From a virus, in IMG/VR virus record IMGVR_UViG_3300019764_000017, positions 1 through 28,877 of that record: a DNA stretch of 28,877 nt; one strand, written 5' to 3'. The translations under genes and the position numbers were made by a program. This document shows, piece after piece, positions 264 through 19,916 of the stretch (position 1 is its first letter; each line of letters begins with the position of its first letter). The notes under the pieces were generated by a model that had not been told where the DNA came from, did not search any database, and saw only the letters and a list, made by a program, of their open reading frames with translations.

Positions 264-2990
264 ATGACCGATTACACAATTGAGGACATGCTAGACCGTG
301 TCGATATAGTTGACATGGCGGCGAATGTCTACGGATTAGATTTAAAAAAGAAAGGCGTTGAATATGAATCGTTATGCTGCTTTCATAAAGAAAAGACGCC
401 TAGCTTAACATTCACGCAGACCAACCAGACGTACTATTGCTTTGGATGCGGCGCTGGCGGCAATGCTTACAACTTCATTAAAGATCATGAGCAACTGTCA
501 GACAAAGAAACGGTTAAGCGATTGAAGCAGATTGCGGGTATCGCTGATGACGATGGTAGGGCTATTGAGAAACCAGAGCCTCGCACTGTGGTAAAACAGC
601 ACAACCCGCTCGATGACTGGGATCATGTATTCCCTGTGCCGGTTCACGCGCCTAAGTTGATCCAAGGCGGAAAAGCTACTGCGTTTAACCCGAAAGTCAA
701 CGCGACTAAAACATATACGCCGGAAGCTGATGGTGTTTATGCTTATCGTGACGCGCACGGTAATCTATTGGGCGCTATCCTTCGTTGTATTTTCAGTGAC
801 GGTAAAAAACAGTTCCTACCTGTCACGTATTGCGTGAATAAAATCACCGGTGAAGAGTCGTGGATTCTTAAGGGCTTTGATGATAATCGACCGATTTACC
901 TACTCGATACGCTAAAAGGGCATGACGAGGTTTTAGTCGTTGAGGGCGAGAAATGCGCCAAAGCTGCTAGCATTGACATCGGGCATGCCTACGACGTTGT
1001 TTCGTGGATGGGCGGAACTAAGGCGATTGATAAGACTGACTGGTCGCCGCTGTACGGCATGAAAGTCACGCTCTGGGCCGATAACGATATTCAGGTTTAC
1101 AAACGAGGTGCTAACGAGGGAAAAGTCAAGCCACAGGATGAACAGAATGGCAGAATGGCTATGATATGGCTTAAGAAACATCTTGAAGCGAACGGGTGCA
1201 CAGTTACGCTGCTAGATCAGCCGATTGGTAAACCTGACAATTGGGATTGCTCTGACGCGAAGGAAGAGGGTTACGATCTGATTCAATATATCGCTGACCA
1301 CACACCAGAGCCTGAGCAGTATAGCGATGATGAAGAACACGACCAGCCTCAGCAAAAGCTTGACATTGCACCGCAGGGTTATGACGAAGGCCGCTTCTAC
1401 TACTATAGCCGGTTTACAAAGCAAATCAAGATGTTACGTGACCGCGACCATACGAAAAACTCGCTGTTAGGAATCGCACCACTTGAGTGGTGGAAAAGCG
1501 GGTTTCAGAACAGTAAGGACGGCGTAGACTGGGACGCTGCTACATCGTGGATGATGAATGCGTGCCGTGTCGTTGGTATATTCAATAAGCGCCGTATTCG
1601 CGGCCGTGGTTGTTGGATGGATGATGGGCGTTTTGTGATGCACTTGGGTGACCGTTTGGTCGTTGATAACACTACAGTAGATATTGGCGGTATACGCTCT
1701 AACTACCTGTACCAAGCGGCTGAGCGCAAGAAAGCGCCATCTAACCCGCTAGGACAAGAAGAGGCTAAGGGGCTGCTAGAAGCAGCAAAGGCTTTTGACT
1801 GGGATATGCCAGCAAGCGCGGCGCTGTTGGCTGGTTTCTGCGTATTAGCTCCAATATGCGGGATGCTCGAATGGCGTCCGCATCTATGGATCAATGGTGG
1901 TTCTGGTTCGGGTAAGTCGACTGTTACCAAATCCTTCACTCGTAAACTAATCGGCGACATGGGCGTATACATCACGCTTAACTCATCTGTGGCTGGGCTT
2001 AGGCAGACGCTAAAGAGTGACGCATTCCCAGTCATGGTGGAGGAGTTTGACCCAAAGAACAAGAGCACTAACGACAAAGCGCAGGAATATTTCGACATGA
2101 TGCGCGACTCGTCTGACGACACGGAAAACCCAGTACTTCGCGGGAACCCGAGCGGCGAGGTTATGGAGTACAGCAGTAACTCGATGTTCTACCTCGTAGG
2201 CGTTCAGGTGTGTACGACAGAGCAAGCGGTACTCAACAGAACGGCTATTCTTTCACTACGATCAAGGCCGGACAAGACGGCACAGCAGAAGGCGAGGAAT
2301 AAAGAAAACTGGGGCCAAATTCAGAGCACAATCTACGAGAAAATAGACACGATTGACGACGTAGCAAGTCGTCTACTAGCTCGCACTATCGGCATGATTG
2401 ATATTATCAGAGATAATATTAAAACGTTCCGTAGCGCAGCCAATACGCACTTTGGTAACGCTCGATACGCTGATCAGTACGGCACGTTACTGGCTGGCTC
2501 ATACTCTTTGGTTTCTGATTGTCGCGTAACAGAAGAGGTTGCACTTAACTACATTAAGGTATATGATTGGTCTGTCTATACTGAGGATTCAGACGATGAT
2601 GAGTCAATGCTGGCATTGAGTAGTATTATGCAGATTAGGATAACAATTGAAGGGCCGTTATCGAAAAGAAGCATAACAATAGCTGAGGCTATAGATAGAG
2701 TAAGAAATCTAGAGGATGGTTATACAGAAGATCATCTTGAGCTAAAGCGTAATGGTATTTTATGCAAAGATAATTATTTTGTTATTGCAAATAAATCAGA
2801 GGCTTTGGCGAAAAAGCTAGAGGGTAAGCCGTGGGGCCAACAGTGGAACCGCTACTTAAAACGAATAATTACACAGTCGGGAGATCACGTAAAAAGCACA
2901 GACAATCCTATAAGATTCGGTGCTATGTCTCAGCGAGGTATGGAGATACCGTACAGCGTTGTTTTTGGTGAAGATGACTATTTGGGGTGA
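264..2990 (+). CDS. Primase-helicase (CHC2 zinc finger, TOPRIM, P-loop helicase)
   Basis: A 908-residue bifunctional replication protein that would prime lagging-strand synthesis and unwind the fork. The N-terminus has a CHC2-type zinc finger: C38, H41, C59, C62 with the typical HKEKTPS stretch. A TOPRIM domain follows, with VVEGEK at 225-230 and WADND at 271-275. After a middle region of unclear function comes a Walker A motif GGSGSGKS at 545-552 and a probable Walker B (VMVEEFD) about 40 residues later, so the C-terminal half is a P-loop NTPase. The gene has its own promoter and AGGAG 8 nt before the ATG. Bulky multi-domain primases of this kind are typical of phages and plasmids. The exact helicase superfamily is uncertain; the rest is secure. 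Confidence 0.92.
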   Translation: MTDYTIEDMLDRVDIVDMAANVYGLDLKKKGVEYESLCCFHKEKTPSLTFTQTNQTYYCFGCGAGGNAYNFIKDHEQLSDKETVKRLKQIAGIADDDGRAIEKPEPRTVVKQHNPLDDWDHVFPVPVHAPKLIQGGKATAFNPKVNATKTYTPEADGVYAYRDAHGNLLGAILRCIFSDGKKQFLPVTYCVNKITGEESWILKGFDDNRPIYLLDTLKGHDEVLVVEGEKCAKAASIDIGHAYDVVSWMGGTKAIDKTDWSPLYGMKVTLWADNDIQVYKRGANEGKVKPQDEQNGRMAMIWLKKHLEANGCTVTLLDQPIGKPDNWDCSDAKEEGYDLIQYIADHTPEPEQYSDDEEHDQPQQKLDIAPQGYDEGRFYYYSRFTKQIKMLRDRDHTKNSLLGIAPLEWWKSGFQNSKDGVDWDAATSWMMNACRVVGIFNKRRIRGRGCWMDDGRFVMHLGDRLVVDNTTVDIGGIRSNYLYQAAERKKAPSNPLGQEEAKGLLEAAKAFDWDMPASAALLAGFCVLAPICGMLEWRPHLWINGGSGSGKSTVTKSFTRKLIGDMGVYITLNSSVAGLRQTLKSDAFPVMVEEFDPKNKSTNDKAQEYFDMMRDSSDDTENPVLRGNPSGEVMEYSSNSMFYLVGVQVCTTEQAVLNRTAILSLRSRPDKTAQQKARNKENWGQIQSTIYEKIDTIDDVASRLLARTIGMIDIIRDNIKTFRSAANTHFGNARYADQYGTLLAGSYSLVSDCRVTEEVALNYIKVYDWSVYTEDSDDDESMLALSSIMQIRITIEGPLSKRSITIAEAIDRVRNLEDGYTEDHLELKRNGILCKDNYFVIANKSEALAKKLEGKPWGQQWNRYLKRIITQSGDHVKSTDNPIRFGAMSQRGMEIPYSVVFGEDDYLG

Positions 2991-2993
2991 TTT

Positions 2994-3161
2994 ATGACGG
3001 TCTATTACTTTATAGCGCTCATTCTTTTTTCAGTGCAGTGTTATATTTTTGGTTTGTGTATTGCAAATAACAAAAACCCTATAACCCAGTATTATGGGCT
3101 CGTTGTGTGGATGGCACCCGTAATATATTACTTGTACGTGCTTGATAAAATAGGAGTTTAA
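2994..3161 (+). CDS. Small membrane protein (55 aa)
   Basis: ATG at 2994 lies 3 nt after the primase stop and is preceded by GGGGTGA. The product has two hydrophobic segments, residues about 4-24 (YYFIALILFSVQCYIFGLCI) and about 34-50 (YYGLVVWMAPVIYYLYV), joined by a polar NNKNPITQ turn, so it is probably a two-span inner-membrane protein. The stop at 3159-3161 sits 2 nt before the next gene, whose ribosome-binding site lies in its last codons. The family is not recognised; a holin-like role is possible but unsupported. Confidence 0.6.
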   Translation: MTVYYFIALILFSVQCYIFGLCIANNKNPITQYYGLVVWMAPVIYYLYVLDKIGV

Positions 3162-3163
3162 CT

Positions 3164-3589
3164 GTGTCTGATTTACTACAAAAATACAACGAATACGAAA
3201 GCGCACGATCAGAACTTATTGCTGATATGCGGAAATTGAGGAATGAGATTTCGGAGTATATTGTCGACAACGACTTAGAATGTGAAATTAATTGCGGTGC
3301 GTTTGATGGCAAGTATGATTCATCTCCCAATGATGACTCGTTTCATATCAGTATTCTAGGCGGGAATGTTTTTTTTCATTTTAGCAAACCAGACCCATAT
3401 GATGACTACGAATACACATGGTCATTCACTTATCAACCAAACTGGGAAGGATTATCCGTTGAAGAGATAGTACAAGACATTGTAAAACAATCTAAAGAGC
3501 TGTTTGATTCGCAAAGGAAACGGGCAATTGATGAAGTCAAGTTTCGAGCTGAAGAGTTGGGAATTAGTGTTAGTGAGGGGAGTAAATGA
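3164..3589 (+). CDS. Unknown phage protein (141 aa), coiled-coil N-terminus
   Basis: It starts at GTG 3164 with TAGGAG at 3151-3156. Residues 1-40 are charged and helical (SDLLQKYNEYESARSELIADM), followed by an acidic, aromatic-rich central part and a second helical region at the C-terminus (QSKELFDSQRKRAIDEVKFR). No enzymatic motif is visible. Its last 4 nt overlap the next start, so the two are probably translationally coupled. Function unknown. Confidence 0.7.
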   Translation: MSDLLQKYNEYESARSELIADMRKLRNEISEYIVDNDLECEINCGAFDGKYDSSPNDDSFHISILGGNVFFHFSKPDPYDDYEYTWSFTYQPNWEGLSVEEIVQDIVKQSKELFDSQRKRAIDEVKFRAEELGISVSEGSK

Positions 3590-15394: not shown

Positions 15395-15422
15395 TTGACT
15401 GTATTACAAATTGTGATATAAT
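15395..15422 (+). promoter_or_regulatory. Strong sigma70 promoter of the RNA region
   Basis: TTGACT (15395-15400), 16-bp spacer, perfect TATAAT (15417-15422), and TG at 15414-15415 giving an extended -10. A second TATAAT lies at 15431-15436. It is the closest to consensus in the window and points at the structured RNA and tRNAs. Confidence 0.85.
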
Positions 15423-15427
15423 TCGTA

Positions 15428-15870
15428 TTGTATAATTTGGATGCAACAAAACGGAATTCTCAATTAAAGACCCCTGTTGAGTTTCTGTTAAAAGACTTAG
15501 GTGCGCTAACACTCTAAGCAACGAGAACCTGCACTGCCTTCCCAGTGCGGGTTTTCACCATTAACCAGTAATGGTTGTTGGAATCTCGCTGTGAAGCGAC
15601 ATAGCACAGATAGTCCCTGTTTTATCTGTGACGGCTTGGAGTGCGCCAACACTCGCAAGCCACTTAGCCGACCTGAGGCGGCGCTGCTTTACCTCAGGAT
15701 GTATTCGAATGGTGGTTGTAGCAGCTATCATCCTAATACAGTGAATGCGCAGGCTGATGCGTTACAAGATAGCGGCAATAACTCTGTAAGGCCCACGTGG
15801 CAGGACGTAATCCCGCAATGCCGGAGATCAGTACCGGCCACTGTATTACCGATACGTGGATTCCAGTTTC
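15428..15870 (+). ncRNA. Candidate large structured RNA upstream of the tRNAs
   Basis: About 440 nt with no credible gene between a strong promoter and tRNA-Met. Self-complementary segments follow one another almost without gaps: 15496-15518; 15526-15553 (11 bp including one G-T); 15557-15575 (7 bp); 15586-15599 (TCGCT-GTGA-AGCGA, a GNRA tetraloop); 15605-15630 (8 bp); 15633-15661; 15672-15698 (7 bp). A 10-bp perfect helix joins 15734-15743 to 15839-15848 and encloses hairpins at 15744-15763, 15799-15822 and 15820-15838 (the last two share bases and are alternatives). The hairpins at 15496 and 15633 have matching loops (CGCTAA, CGCCAA) closed by GTG/CAC. Large ornate RNAs (GOLLD, ROOL) are known next to phage tRNA genes; membership in either class is not shown. 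The 15526 hairpin with TTTT could alternatively end a 125-nt small RNA. Confidence 0.6.
15526..15555 (+). terminator. Terminator-like hairpin inside the RNA region
   Basis: An 11-bp stem (one T-G pair, loop CCTTCC) followed by TTTT. It may terminate part of the transcripts from the 15395 promoter, giving a short RNA, or simply be one helix of the larger fold. Confidence 0.5.
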
Positions 15871-15948
15871 GCGCCAATAGCATAATAGGTTAATGCAGTC
15901 GCCTCATAAGCGGAAGAAGGAGCGGTTCGAATCCGCCTTGGCGCACCA
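15871..15948 (+). tRNA. tRNA-Met (anticodon CAT)
   Basis: Acceptor stem GCGCCAA/TTGGCGC, D stem GCAT/ATGC, anticodon loop CTCATAA with CAT at 15905-15907, T arm GCGG-TTCGAAT-CCGC, discriminator A and encoded CCA ending at 15948. The anticodon stem has four pairs plus a G-A mismatch at its top. CAT could be elongator Met, or Ile2 if the C is modified to lysidine; the first pair G-C argues against an initiator tRNA. Confidence 0.85.
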
Positions 15949-15955
15949 TTTTACT

Positions 15956-16096
15956 GTTTCAGTAGCTCAGCGGTTAGAGTGCATCTTGCATATGATGGGT
16001 GAAAAGGCCCGAAAAAACAGGCAAGTTTGGGAAAAGGCAGCGCTGCCCGATTACCTAGAAAAATGGCCGTGGGTTCAAATCCCACCTGAAACACCA
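15956..16096 (+). tRNA. Abnormal tRNA-like gene with a 71-nt variable region
   Basis: Acceptor GTTTCAG (15956-15962) pairs perfectly with CTGAAAC (16086-16092), followed by A and encoded CCA. D arm GCTC..GAGT and T arm GTGGG-TTCAAAT-CCCAC are intact. The anticodon arm is irregular: CATC/GATG enclose 8 nt (TTGCATAT), so the anticodon (GCA or TGC) is unclear. Between 15998 and 16068 lie 71 nt where 4-24 are usual. They can fold into one long arm: GGCC/GGCC (16006, 16065), AGG/CCT (16019, 16054), TTGGG/CCCGA (16027, 16046). Because acceptor halves match each other and nothing else nearby, this is one gene with an insertion, not two tRNAs. It may be a decayed tRNA or a specialised RNA. Confidence 0.65.
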
Positions 16097-16100
16097 TTAC

Positions 16101-16177
16101 GCGCATATAGCTCAATTGGATAGAGCATCGGTCTTCTACACCGAGTGTTGCAGGTTCGAGTACTGCTAAGCGCACCA
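16101..16177 (+). tRNA. tRNA-Arg (anticodon TCT)
   Basis: Acceptor GCGCATA/TAAGCGC with one A-A mismatch, D stem GCTC/GAGC, anticodon stem TCGGT/ACCGA (perfect) with loop CTTCTAC and anticodon TCT at 16135-16137, T arm GCAGG-TTCGAGT-ACTGC with one mismatch at the loop, and encoded CCA at 16175-16177. It reads AGA/AGG, which are rare in many enteric hosts but frequent in AT-rich phage genes. Confidence 0.88.
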
Positions 16178-16691: not shown

Positions 16692-19600
16692 ATGACTATA
16701 TTCGTTACTAAGCGCAACGGAGATCGTGAGGCGCTTGATTTGGATAAAATTCACAAGGTTATCAATTGGGGATCAGAAGGGCTTAATGTTTCTGTTTCTC
16801 AGGTTGAGCTTAAAGCTAATCCGCACTTCGTTGACGGAATCAAAACATCTGATATCCATAAGACGCTGGTTAAGTCTGCTGCCGACTTGATTACAGAATG
16901 GGAGCCCGACTATTCACTACTAGCCGCGCGCTTGGCTGTGTTCGATCTTCGTAAGCGATCGTTCGGTCAGTACACGCCGCCAGATTTGTATCAGCATGTT
17001 GATCACCTAGTGGGTAAAGGTATCTACGACAAGCACATCGTAGAGGATTACACAGCTAGCGAGATTACGGAGTTAAGCGAACATATTGATCATGATCGTG
17101 ACCTGAGTTTTCACTATGCCGCTGTTAAGCAGTGGGAAGGCAAATACCTAGTTCAAGACCGCACTAATGGCACTATCTACGAATCGCCACAGCAAGCTTA
17201 CATGTTGATTGCTATGTGCTTGTTCGCATCCGAGCCTAAAGATAAGCGTATGGACTACGTTAAGCGGTTCTATGATGCTGTCTCGTTGCACAAGCTATCA
17301 TTGCCAACGCCTATCATGGCAGGTGTGCGAACACCTACGCGACAGTTTAGCTCATGCACTCTGATAGAGTCAGGCGATAGTATTGATTCAATCAACGCAA
17401 CAGCGGCATCTATTGTTAAATACGTGTCTCAGCGCGCAGGAATTGGAGTTAATGCGGGTAGTATTCGTGCCATTGGTAGTCCGATTCGTAATGGTGAGGC
17501 GTTTCATACGGGTTGCATCCCGTTTTATAAGCACTTCCAAACGGCGGTCAAGTCTTGCTCGCAAGGTGGTGTGCGTGGTGGTGCGGCGACACTGTTTTAT
17601 CCATTGTGGCACTTAGAGGCTGAGTCGCTTTTGGTGCTAAAGAACAATCGAGGCACTGACGAGAACCGTGTCCGTCATATGGATTATGGCGTGCAATTGA
17701 ATAAGCTCATGTATCAGCGCTTGGTCAAAGGTGGAAATATTACGCTGTTTAGCCCTCACGATGTAAAAGGGCTGTATGATGCATTTTTTGCTGATCAAGA
17801 TGAGTTCGAGCGATTGTATATTCAAGCCGAAAACGACCCAAGCATTCGCAAGAAGACGATAAAAGCCGTTGATCTGTTTAGTTCGTTAATGTCTGAGCGC
17901 GCATCTACGGGCCGTATCTATATTCAAAACGTTGACCATTGTAACACCCATAGCCCGTTCGATCCGGATGTTGCTCCGGTTAGGCAGAGTAATTTGTGTG
18001 TTGCTCCTGAAACAATGATTCTAACTGATTCCGGATACTACCCAATATCTGATCTTGAAAACGAGCAAGTGAATGTCTGGAACGGAGAAGAGTTCTCAGA
18101 AACAGTTGTTGTGAAAACTGGAGAGAACCAAAAGTTAATTACAGTTAATACAAATAGTACAAAATCAATTGATTGTACCGAGTATCATAAGTTTTATGTT
18201 GCTCTGGGGTATACTGGTAAGTACGTGGAAAAACGGGCTTTTGAGTTAAAATCAGGAGATAAGTTAATTAAGTTTGATTTGCCAGTGATTCACGGCAAAA
18301 AAACTCTTGAAAACGCATACACAAACGGAATGTTCACGGCTGATGGTTGTTATGATGGCGGAAGAAACAAGCTGTATCTTTATCATGAAAAAAGAAACCT
18401 AAAACACAGGATGTCAAGTGAAATTGTATGGAAAGAGCAGGATTCTGAAAATAGAAGCTATGGGTACTGTCAAAATCTAAAAGATAAATTCTTTATTCCT
18501 GACGCATCTTATACCGTTGAAAGTCGTCTTGAATGGCTAGCTGGATACCTTGATGGAGATGGGACAATAGTAAGAAATGGATCAAATGAATCCATTCAAG
18601 CAGTTTCTATTGATTTTGAATTTTTATATGAACTTCAAATGATGCTTCAAACGCTTGGCGTACAGTCAAAGGTTGTAAAAGCAATGGAAGGTGGGTGTCG
18701 CCCTATGCCTGCAAACAACGGCACCGGCGAAAATAAAATGTTTGACTGCAAGGAAACAAAAAGAATACTTATCTCATCAAGCGGCTTGTTTAAGCTAGCC
18801 CAGTTAGGATTAAACACAAGCAGGCTTAAGTGGAACAAAAGAAAGCCGCAAAGATGTGCTGAGCAATTCATTCAAGTAGAGTCGATTGAGTATAACGGTC
18901 GTACTGATGATACGTATTGCTTTGCTGAACCAAAGCGCCACATGGGGATGTTCAACGGCATTCTGACTGGACAATGCCTTGAAATTGCCCTACCAACCAA
19001 GCCGCTAAACGACATTAACGACACTAACGGCGAGATTGCGCTTTGTACGCTGTCGGCGTTTAACTTGGGCGCTATTGGCATTGATGAGCTGCCGGAGTTG
19101 TCTGAACTGATCGTGCGCGCACTTGATAATCTACTTGACTATCAGGACTACCCGATCAAAGCCGCAGAGATAGCAGCGAAACAGCGTAGAACGCTAGGTG
19201 TTGGCGTTACTAACTTCGCTTACTTCTTAGCCAAAAACAACGTGAAATACTCGGATGGTTCTGCTAATAATTTGGTTCACCGTTGGTTTGAAGCGATTCA
19301 ATACAGCTTACTAAAAGCATCTAACGAACTAGCGAAAGAAAAAGGCGCTTGCGGACTGTTTGGCGACACTCGCTATAGCGTGGGTATTGCCCCTCACGAC
19401 ACGTCCAAGCCGGAAGTCGACGCGCTACACAGCGAGCCGCTGCATCTGGACTGGGATAGCCTTATGTTTGACATTGCGAAAGACGGGCTGCGCAATAGTA
19501 CGCTAACAGCTATTATGCCTTGCGAGACATCTAGCCAGATTACTAACTCAACGAACGGCATCGAGCCGCCACGAGGTTATGTGTCTGTTAAGTTAAGCAA

Positions 19601-19916
19601 GGACGGCATATTAAAGCAAGTTGTTCCTGAGTTCGCTGAGATGTTCGATAAGTATGAGTTGTTATGGGATATTCCAAACAACAAAGGATACCTTGAGTTA
19701 GTCGCTATCATGCAGAAATTCGTTGATCAGTCGATTAGCGCAAACACTAACTACGATCCTGCGCGGTTTGAGAATGGTAAAGTGCCTATGAAGCTTCTGC
19801 TATCAGACCTGCTCACAGCGTATAAAAACGGCGTGAAAACGCTGTATTATCACAATACTCGAGATGGGCAGGGCAATGAAGATGATGGATGTGAATCTGG
19901 GGCTTGTAAACTCTGA
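16692..19916 (+). CDS. nrdA: Ribonucleotide reductase class Ia alpha subunit, intein-containing
   Basis: Reduces ribonucleoside diphosphates to dNDPs together with NrdB. The precursor has 1074 residues; without the 326-residue intein (436-761) the extein is 748, near the 761 of E. coli NrdA, which it resembles throughout. It has an N-terminal ATP cone (VTKRNGDREALDLDKIHKVI), Cys222 in FSSCTLIES, the radical cysteine (C762 of the precursor) in C-LEIALPTKPLND, Cys785 in ALCTLSAF, two tyrosines of the radical path in the C-terminal KTLYYHNTRDG, and the shuttle cysteines in the final CESGACKL. The segment before the C-terminal pair is shorter than in E. coli. Without splicing, the active site would be interrupted. 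A terminator follows at 19934. Confidence 0.97.
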   Translation: MTIFVTKRNGDREALDLDKIHKVINWGSEGLNVSVSQVELKANPHFVDGIKTSDIHKTLVKSAADLITEWEPDYSLLAARLAVFDLRKRSFGQYTPPDLYQHVDHLVGKGIYDKHIVEDYTASEITELSEHIDHDRDLSFHYAAVKQWEGKYLVQDRTNGTIYESPQQAYMLIAMCLFASEPKDKRMDYVKRFYDAVSLHKLSLPTPIMAGVRTPTRQFSSCTLIESGDSIDSINATAASIVKYVSQRAGIGVNAGSIRAIGSPIRNGEAFHTGCIPFYKHFQTAVKSCSQGGVRGGAATLFYPLWHLEAESLLVLKNNRGTDENRVRHMDYGVQLNKLMYQRLVKGGNITLFSPHDVKGLYDAFFADQDEFERLYIQAENDPSIRKKTIKAVDLFSSLMSERASTGRIYIQNVDHCNTHSPFDPDVAPVRQSNLCVAPETMILTDSGYYPISDLENEQVNVWNGEEFSETVVVKTGENQKLITVNTNSTKSIDCTEYHKFYVALGYTGKYVEKRAFELKSGDKLIKFDLPVIHGKKTLENAYTNGMFTADGCYDGGRNKLYLYHEKRNLKHRMSSEIVWKEQDSENRSYGYCQNLKDKFFIPDASYTVESRLEWLAGYLDGDGTIVRNGSNESIQAVSIDFEFLYELQMMLQTLGVQSKVVKAMEGGCRPMPANNGTGENKMFDCKETKRILISSSGLFKLAQLGLNTSRLKWNKRKPQRCAEQFIQVESIEYNGRTDDTYCFAEPKRHMGMFNGILTGQCLEIALPTKPLNDINDTNGEIALCTLSAFNLGAIGIDELPELSELIVRALDNLLDYQDYPIKAAEIAAKQRRTLGVGVTNFAYFLAKNNVKYSDGSANNLVHRWFEAIQYSLLKASNELAKEKGACGLFGDTRYSVGIAPHDTSKPEVDALHSEPLHLDWDSLMFDIAKDGLRNSTLTAIMPCETSSQITNSTNGIEPPRGYVSVKLSKDGILKQVVPEFAEMFDKYELLWDIPNNKGYLELVAIMQKFVDQSISANTNYDPARFENGKVPMKLLLSDLLTAYKNGVKTLYYHNTRDGQGNEDDGCESGACKL
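17997..18974 (+). other. Intein with LAGLIDADG homing endonuclease, inserted before the NrdA radical cysteine
   Basis: 326 residues. It begins with Cys1 (CVAPETMILTDSGYYPI, block A) right after extein QSNL; block B is DCTEYHKFYV with His64; two LAGLIDADG-type motifs are NGMFTADG (about 110-117) and WLAGYLDGDG (180-189), so a DOD homing endonuclease is probably present; block F/G is DTYCFAEPKRHMGMFNGIL then TGQ. The last two residues are Gly-Gln, where His-Asn is usual. The +1 extein residue is the catalytic cysteine equal to E. coli C439. Inteins ending in Gln are known, but loss of the penultimate His too makes splicing efficiency uncertain. The coding sequence looks more A+T-rich than the flanking exteins. 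Confidence 0.95.

Follow-up and report, generated by a model that had tools for sequence, protein, structure and literature searches.

Phages and prophages carry non-coding structured RNAs, two of which, GOLLD and ROOL, are found near tRNA islands (PMC12286853). Another RNA that will be important here is STnc100, which has been detected by Northern blot (PMC5331693) and which has a relative, PasD, that was identified by Hfq RIL-seq and is reported to bind Hfq and to have mRNA targets (PMC13192938). The locus considered below lies in a viral sequence of 28,877 nt (IMG/VR record IMGVR_UViG_3300019764_000017, here called the window), of which positions 15428-15870 were examined; the promoter, RNA, and tRNA features described there are on the plus strand. 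A sequence-only reading had proposed that this stretch encodes a single large, ornate RNA of an undescribed type beside phage tRNAs. The comparisons reported here lead to a different division of the stretch: a string of hairpins is followed by a compact element of about 140 nt (15709-15850), which is, on well-supported grounds of sequence comparison, one member of a widespread and so far unnamed family of phage RNAs. The existence of an undescribed-looking structured RNA next to the tRNAs, and of helices in the 440 nt, was therefore correctly perceived, while the idea that these helices span one large RNA was not.

The Locus and Its Surroundings

A sigma70-type promoter, identified by its match to the consensus, lies 5' of the RNA and tRNA stretch at 15395-15422 (TTGACT, 16 nt, TATAAT; 11 of 12 matches); it has a TG ahead of the -10 hexamer and so is the near-consensus, extended -10 promoter that had been claimed. 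On the other side, and again as claimed, tRNA-Met follows directly (15871-15948). Next come a tRNA-like gene with an oversized insertion (15956-16093), which the Rfam tRNA model scores at 42.7 bits and ARAGORN does not call, and a tRNA-Arg (16101-16177). The insertion in the tRNA-like gene amounts to some 60 additional nt in the anticodon/variable region, and comparable tRNA-like domains with odd insertions are present 5' of family members at two other loci (L086 and L229). Further downstream, the NrdA gene (16692-19916) exceeds many of its relatives in length by about 1 kb. Residues 588-658 of its product match an endonuclease family, which points to a probable intein or another kind of homing insertion.

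A search of the stretch against all the models of Rfam 15, up to E = 10, returned only tRNAs and weak noise. This result rules out GOLLD, ROOL, or another Rfam family as the identity of the RNA, in keeping with the earlier reluctance to assign it to either of the first two.

Folding Energy and the Upstream Hairpins

Compared with shuffled sequences, the whole of 15428-15870 folds far better than expected: its minimum free energy is -161.6 kcal/mol (z -5.45), and none of 100 shuffles was as low. However, 15428-15689 by itself has a z of -6.26, whereas 15690-15862, which contains the 10-bp helix that had been singled out, has a z of -0.01. The energy signal thus comes from simple hairpins, all of it from the chain at 15428-15698, and the energy of the family member itself is ordinary (z 0.0). 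Folding energy, then, lends the 10-bp helix no support; the evolutionary signal resides in the part that has no energy signal.

The string of simple hairpins occupies 15428-15660, and two of these hairpins (15501-15514 and 15641-15654) have the loop sequence GTGCGCYAACACTC in common. Only 15581-15665 of the string was found in relatives (loci L004 and L005), a longer piece of the upstream part being present in L004 alone. A 7-bp hairpin (CCTGAGG..CCTCAGG, 15672-15698) is also kept in L004. The 16-mer GAGTGCGCCAACACTC forms a hairpin in 30 viral contigs, in some of which it is complementary to one end of BsrG RNAs; it was rejected as the mark of a shared RNA family, as these 30 occurrences are in unrelated surroundings.

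The separation into modules is due to the comparison with L004, an IMG/VR contig in which the best segment of NrdA is 87% identical to that of the window and in which a tRNA-Arg stands immediately 3' of the core. Three blocks are kept in this relative (15581-15665, 15668-15713, and 15719-15850), and between them it has about 55 and 48 nt of additional sequence; the second insertion falls in the apical loop of a hairpin (P0, 15709-15731) whose stem is kept. Blocks that are kept individually and separated in this way, together with the restriction of the widespread family to 15709-15850, argue against a single large RNA. A proposed pseudoknot between CCACGT (15793-15798) and ACGTGG (15854-15859) was dropped: L004 has CCATGT in place of the first arm and lacks the second. 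A coding reading of the 100-aa ORF at 15591-15893 was likewise rejected; it has no PHROG match, and the 55-nt insertion in L004 breaks its frame.

A Widespread Family of Compact RNAs

BLAST with the stretch gave matches in 177 phage and 73 plasmid records, the best of which contained two short, co-occurring blocks, GTGAATGCGCAGGCTGATGCG and GCCGGAGATCAGYRCCGGCCAC. Pattern scans found both blocks in 71 viral contigs (and block 2 alone in further ones) and block 1 in 80 stretches of bacterial genomes. A covariance model, R1, was built for the family, and the whole element was found in nearly all the block-1 loci searched. The window scores 79.4 bits against R1 (E 6.8e-20), a value to be read in the knowledge that its sequence is part of the training set; its block match had been found by BLAST before R1 existed, and it has block 1, block 2, and the P1, P2, and P3 pairs that characterize the family.

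After de-duplication, 203 distinct members were obtained from phages, prophages, and plasmids. They include the Pseudomonas phages PS-1 and Shamal, Erwinia phage phiEt88, Burkholderia phage CSP3, Klebsiella phage Magnus, the coliphages HK620 and P1, phage ZC03, and an E. coli prophage. Because most of them were collected through exact identity to one block, the blocks look somewhat more invariant than they are. A BLAST match exists in 1005 of 5426 complete E. coli genomes, and no annotated feature underlies the matches listed. With the covariance model, the prevalence in Enterobacterales is at least 4 of 149 genomes, for each of which 25 candidates were scored. The genome loci are mostly in Gamma- and Betaproteobacteria, and the few in metagenome-assembled genomes of other phyla are possibly misbinned. 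Several copies can occur in one genome, as on a single contig of Pantoea sp. BAV 3049 (L281, L292, L325, and L341), or in tandem, as at L328 (positions 3726 and 4340). No paper describing the family was found in the open-access literature, to which the search was confined, and a literature search for phage P1 transcriptomes yielded nothing usable.

The Conserved Fold

Comparison of the members shows a common architecture in which a 5' hairpin (P0) precedes a closing stem (P1, usually 7-9 bp), a 4-bp arm (P2), an insert, and a 5-bp arm (P3) directly adjoining P1, the whole folding as sense-strand RNA. In the window, P0 pairs 15709-15718 with 15722-15731. The helix is formed in 142 of 197 members versus 27 of 197 shuffled sequences, and its modal distance to block 1 is 9 nt, as it is in the window; in L271, ZC03, Magnus, and the first unit of phage P1 (see below), its place is taken by a tRNA or a degenerate tRNA-like domain.

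Stem P1 (15734-15743 with 15839-15848) encloses the core, and it is the perfect 10-bp helix of the sequence-only reading, which proves to be real and to covary in relatives. Its four outer pairs are formed in 99, 99, 97, and 90% of the 203 members and comprise as many as six types of pair; its covariation score was reached by none of 500 shuffles and is abolished when the partner is shifted. P1 is 7-9 bp long in 170 of the 203 members.

Within P1, block 1 (GTGAATGCGCAGGCTGATGCG, 15741-15761), for which the chance expectation in the window at three mismatches is 0.02 matches, overlaps the P2 arm (15747-15750 with 15759-15762; 8-nt loop at 15751-15758). Three pairs of P2 are present in all 203 members, with double changes such as GCAC/GTGC, GCGT/ACGC, and GCGA/TCGC, among others. 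Block 2 (GCCGGAGATCAGTACCGGCCAC, 15820-15841) contains the P3 arm (15820-15824 with 15834-15838), which is joined to P1 without a linker and which varies as GTCGG/CCGAC, GCTGG/CCAGC, and GCCAG/CTGGC.

The P2 loop (AGGCUGAU) and the P3 loop (AGAUCAGYR) could form six pairs with each other in nearly all members, the individual pairs being kept in 191-203 of the 203; in the window, these would join GCTGAT (15753-15758) to ATCAGT (15827-15832). A compensated change (GCGA with UCGC) occurs in L214, the only divergent cousin of this kind. The near-invariance of the loops, together with this one cousin, makes it likely that they pair over 6 bp in the manner of a tRNA elbow, and we infer that the pairing is intramolecular.

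On the sense strand, G.U mispairs outnumber A.C mispairs by 83 to 23 (raw counts, from members that share ancestry), which supports folding as sense-strand RNA. Coding is not a family-wide property: one frame is open across the core in 45 of the 203 members and a second in 1 of 203.

At the end of P1, the window has ACC (15848-15850, followed by G) and L004 has ACCCA, a tRNA-like 3' end that recurs in many members. Among 170 deduplicated members, ACC follows P1 in 63, versus a background of 3.2 per offset, and ACCA in 30 (three offsets pooled, the end of P1 being ambiguous) versus 0.8 per offset. These counts strongly suggest that ACC(A) is often the 3' end of the RNA, although the ACCA could partly reflect shared ancestry.

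Resemblance to tRNA, GOLLD, and ROOL

The 7-9 bp closing stem, the 3-nt AAT linker, the 4-bp arm with its 8-nt loop, the variable middle, the 5-bp last arm without a linker, the proposed contact between the loops, and, in a minority, the terminal ACCA are all reminiscent of tRNA. The helices have the order and sizes of the acceptor stem, D arm, and T arm, followed by CCA, with the loop pairing replacing the elbow. However, the P3 loop has 9 nt and no T-loop motif, and a 6-bp pairing between loops differs from the usual D-loop/T-loop contacts. Neither ARAGORN nor the Rfam tRNA model recognized the core. The resemblance is one of analogy rather than of membership.

Like GOLLD and ROOL, the family occurs near phage tRNAs, as in the window. 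Unlike them, its members measure about 140-220 nt rather than several hundred, and they contain a hypervariable insert rather than one large conserved fold.

A Sister Family: STnc100 and the Array in Phage P1

The window has no match to the STnc100 model (RF02076) at E <= 10 and so does not reach its gathering threshold of 47 bits. Nevertheless, STnc100 and the R1 family have in common a closing stem ending in GUG, an AAU linker, a P2 hairpin, and a P3 arm that abuts CAC. They also occupy the same kind of phage loci, and they are found together in one array in phage P1, in Magnus, and at L095. They differ in the sequences of blocks 1 and 2 and in the P3 loop (AGGCA in STnc100 versus AGAUCAGYR), and their P2 sequences and inserts are unrelated.

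In phage P1 (locus L162), an array of about 900 nt (2430-3330) consists of four structured RNA units with one frame; it sits between the tRNA-Asn and tRNA-Thr genes and tciA, where only a small hypothetical protein is annotated. Two clear members of the R1 family (2486-2633 and 2915-3029) alternate in it with two cousins that share their frame. Of the four units, the last scores 33.9 bits with RF02076, below the gathering threshold, and 21.6 bits with R1. On the basis of the common frame (P1, the AAT linker, P2, and P3 joined to CAC) and of this unit scored by both models, we conclude from sequence comparison that STnc100 and the R1 family are best regarded as sister families.

The Variable Insert

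Between P2 and P3 lies an insert (15763-15819 in the window), for which the role of an exchangeable payload is proposed. Its length ranges from 7 to 179 nt among the 203 members, and its sequences fall into about 143 clusters, 107 of them single, a number that is approximate in that single linkage joined a few dissimilar inserts. Shuffled inserts stayed under the clustering threshold. Among the loci fetched, the type present in the window recurred in L004 alone.

Identical inserts can be found on differing flanks: unit 3 of phage P1 has the insert of L118, and unit 1 that of L220. More generally, the upstream flanks of recurring insert types mostly differ, with a median identity of 0.55-0.61 in most clusters and a maximum of 0.72. 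Recurring inserts can contain compensatory stems, as in L118 versus L135 and in the GGCAAGACAA..GCGGCCC type. A frame that is fixed and a middle section that varies between phages suggest an RNA "holder" for exchangeable parts.

Transcription Signals and Genomic Context

Terminators are present within 160 nt on the 3' side in 38 of 198 members, versus 2-11 in control windows and 4 on the antisense strand, and promoter-like sites on the 5' side in 73 of 188, versus 36-45 in controls. A tRNA lies within 300 nt 3' of the element in 18 of 203 members, versus 1 in the control window. In ZC03, the element is inside an array of 10 tRNAs; in phage P1, it is 3' of tRNA-Asn and tRNA-Thr; in ASO78B, it is oriented, like its tRNAs, against the flanking structural genes. 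Co-orientation statistics based on ORFs were uninformative owing to spurious ORFs. The copy in HK620 lies between pR'/qut and the late terminator, and that in E. coli CE10 is in an early region. Across these contexts (late leader, tRNA array, and early region), no shared target or partner gene was found.

The prophage late-leader sRNAs IsrJ (RF01393), IsrK, and Proteo-phage-1 (RF03044) are likewise non-coding and occupy the same intergenic stretches, but they have no match in sequence or structure to the R1 family. Beside one member (L097), positions 1269-1305 match the Rfam abiF RNA (RF03085) at 55 bits on what appears to be an intrinsic terminator; no AbiF-like gene was identified, and the Rfam model may partly capture terminators.

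Possible Functions

The reading that we prefer, tentatively and with a probability of about 0.45, is that of a trans-acting phage sRNA in which a tRNA-shaped scaffold presents an exchangeable effector domain. The RNA would be made from a strong promoter together with the tRNAs and then excised by tRNA-type processing. Its frame would shield it from nucleases and hold out the insert, which would, during infection, act in trans on an RNA or protein of the host; different phages may have different targets.

The two main rivals both overlap with this scaffold model. One is that the family consists of ordinary base-pairing sRNAs that depend on Hfq or ProQ, like PasD or STnc100, with a seed in the insert or the P0 loop, a frame that binds the chaperone, and a likeness to tRNA that is coincidental. 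The sister relation to STnc100, the discovery of the related PasD by Hfq RIL-seq (PMC13192938), and the terminators that a fraction of members possess are what such an sRNA would lead one to expect; however, near-invariant blocks of 21 and 22 nt and a loop-loop contact are more than a chaperone site needs, and the inserts have folds of their own that include compensatory stems, which makes this explanation rather doubtful. The other rival is an anti-defence decoy or inhibitor that, by mimicking a tRNA or other host RNA, would tie up a defence nuclease or toxin, with different insert types suited to different defence systems. A near-fixed frame with rapidly exchanged inserts in mobile phage genomes would suit a decoy, as would the tRNA-like layout and the tRNA neighbours, but no link to defence genes emerged (the sole abiF-RNA match beside a member resembles a plain terminator), and we consider a decoy unlikely.

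A role in cis, as an antiterminator-like leader or a processing site for downstream late genes or tRNAs, is suggested by the position of the HK620 copy and by those in phiEt88 and the window, close 5' of tRNAs. It is distinctly improbable for an element that is also found between tRNAs, 3' of them (phage P1), in early regions (E. coli CE10), and 5' of its own terminator, with no constant gene downstream. Finally, the modular spread has the look of mobility, and folding of single-stranded DNA could also give compensatory changes, as if the element were a recombination or transposition hairpin; that it acts as DNA is nonetheless scarcely credible given the excess of G.U over A.C on one strand, the terminators and promoters on that same strand, and, in ASO78B, its orientation with the tRNAs against the structural genes.

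A bolder version of the scaffold model, possible but not to be expected, is that phages have a natural "tRNA scaffold" system, in which they swap RNA effector domains on a tRNA-shaped frame that hardly varies, either as single units or as arrays beside tRNA genes (four units in phage P1), each domain being directed against a different component of the host or its defences.

The family also indicates that a genuine structured RNA can escape notice if folding energy is the sole criterion: its member here has a z of about 0, and poorly conserved neighbours have a z of -6. This RNA is present in model phages such as P1 and HK620 and in many bacterial genera, yet no Rfam model matches it. A nearly fixed frame with exchangeable inserts predicts that it is the insert that would confer specificity.
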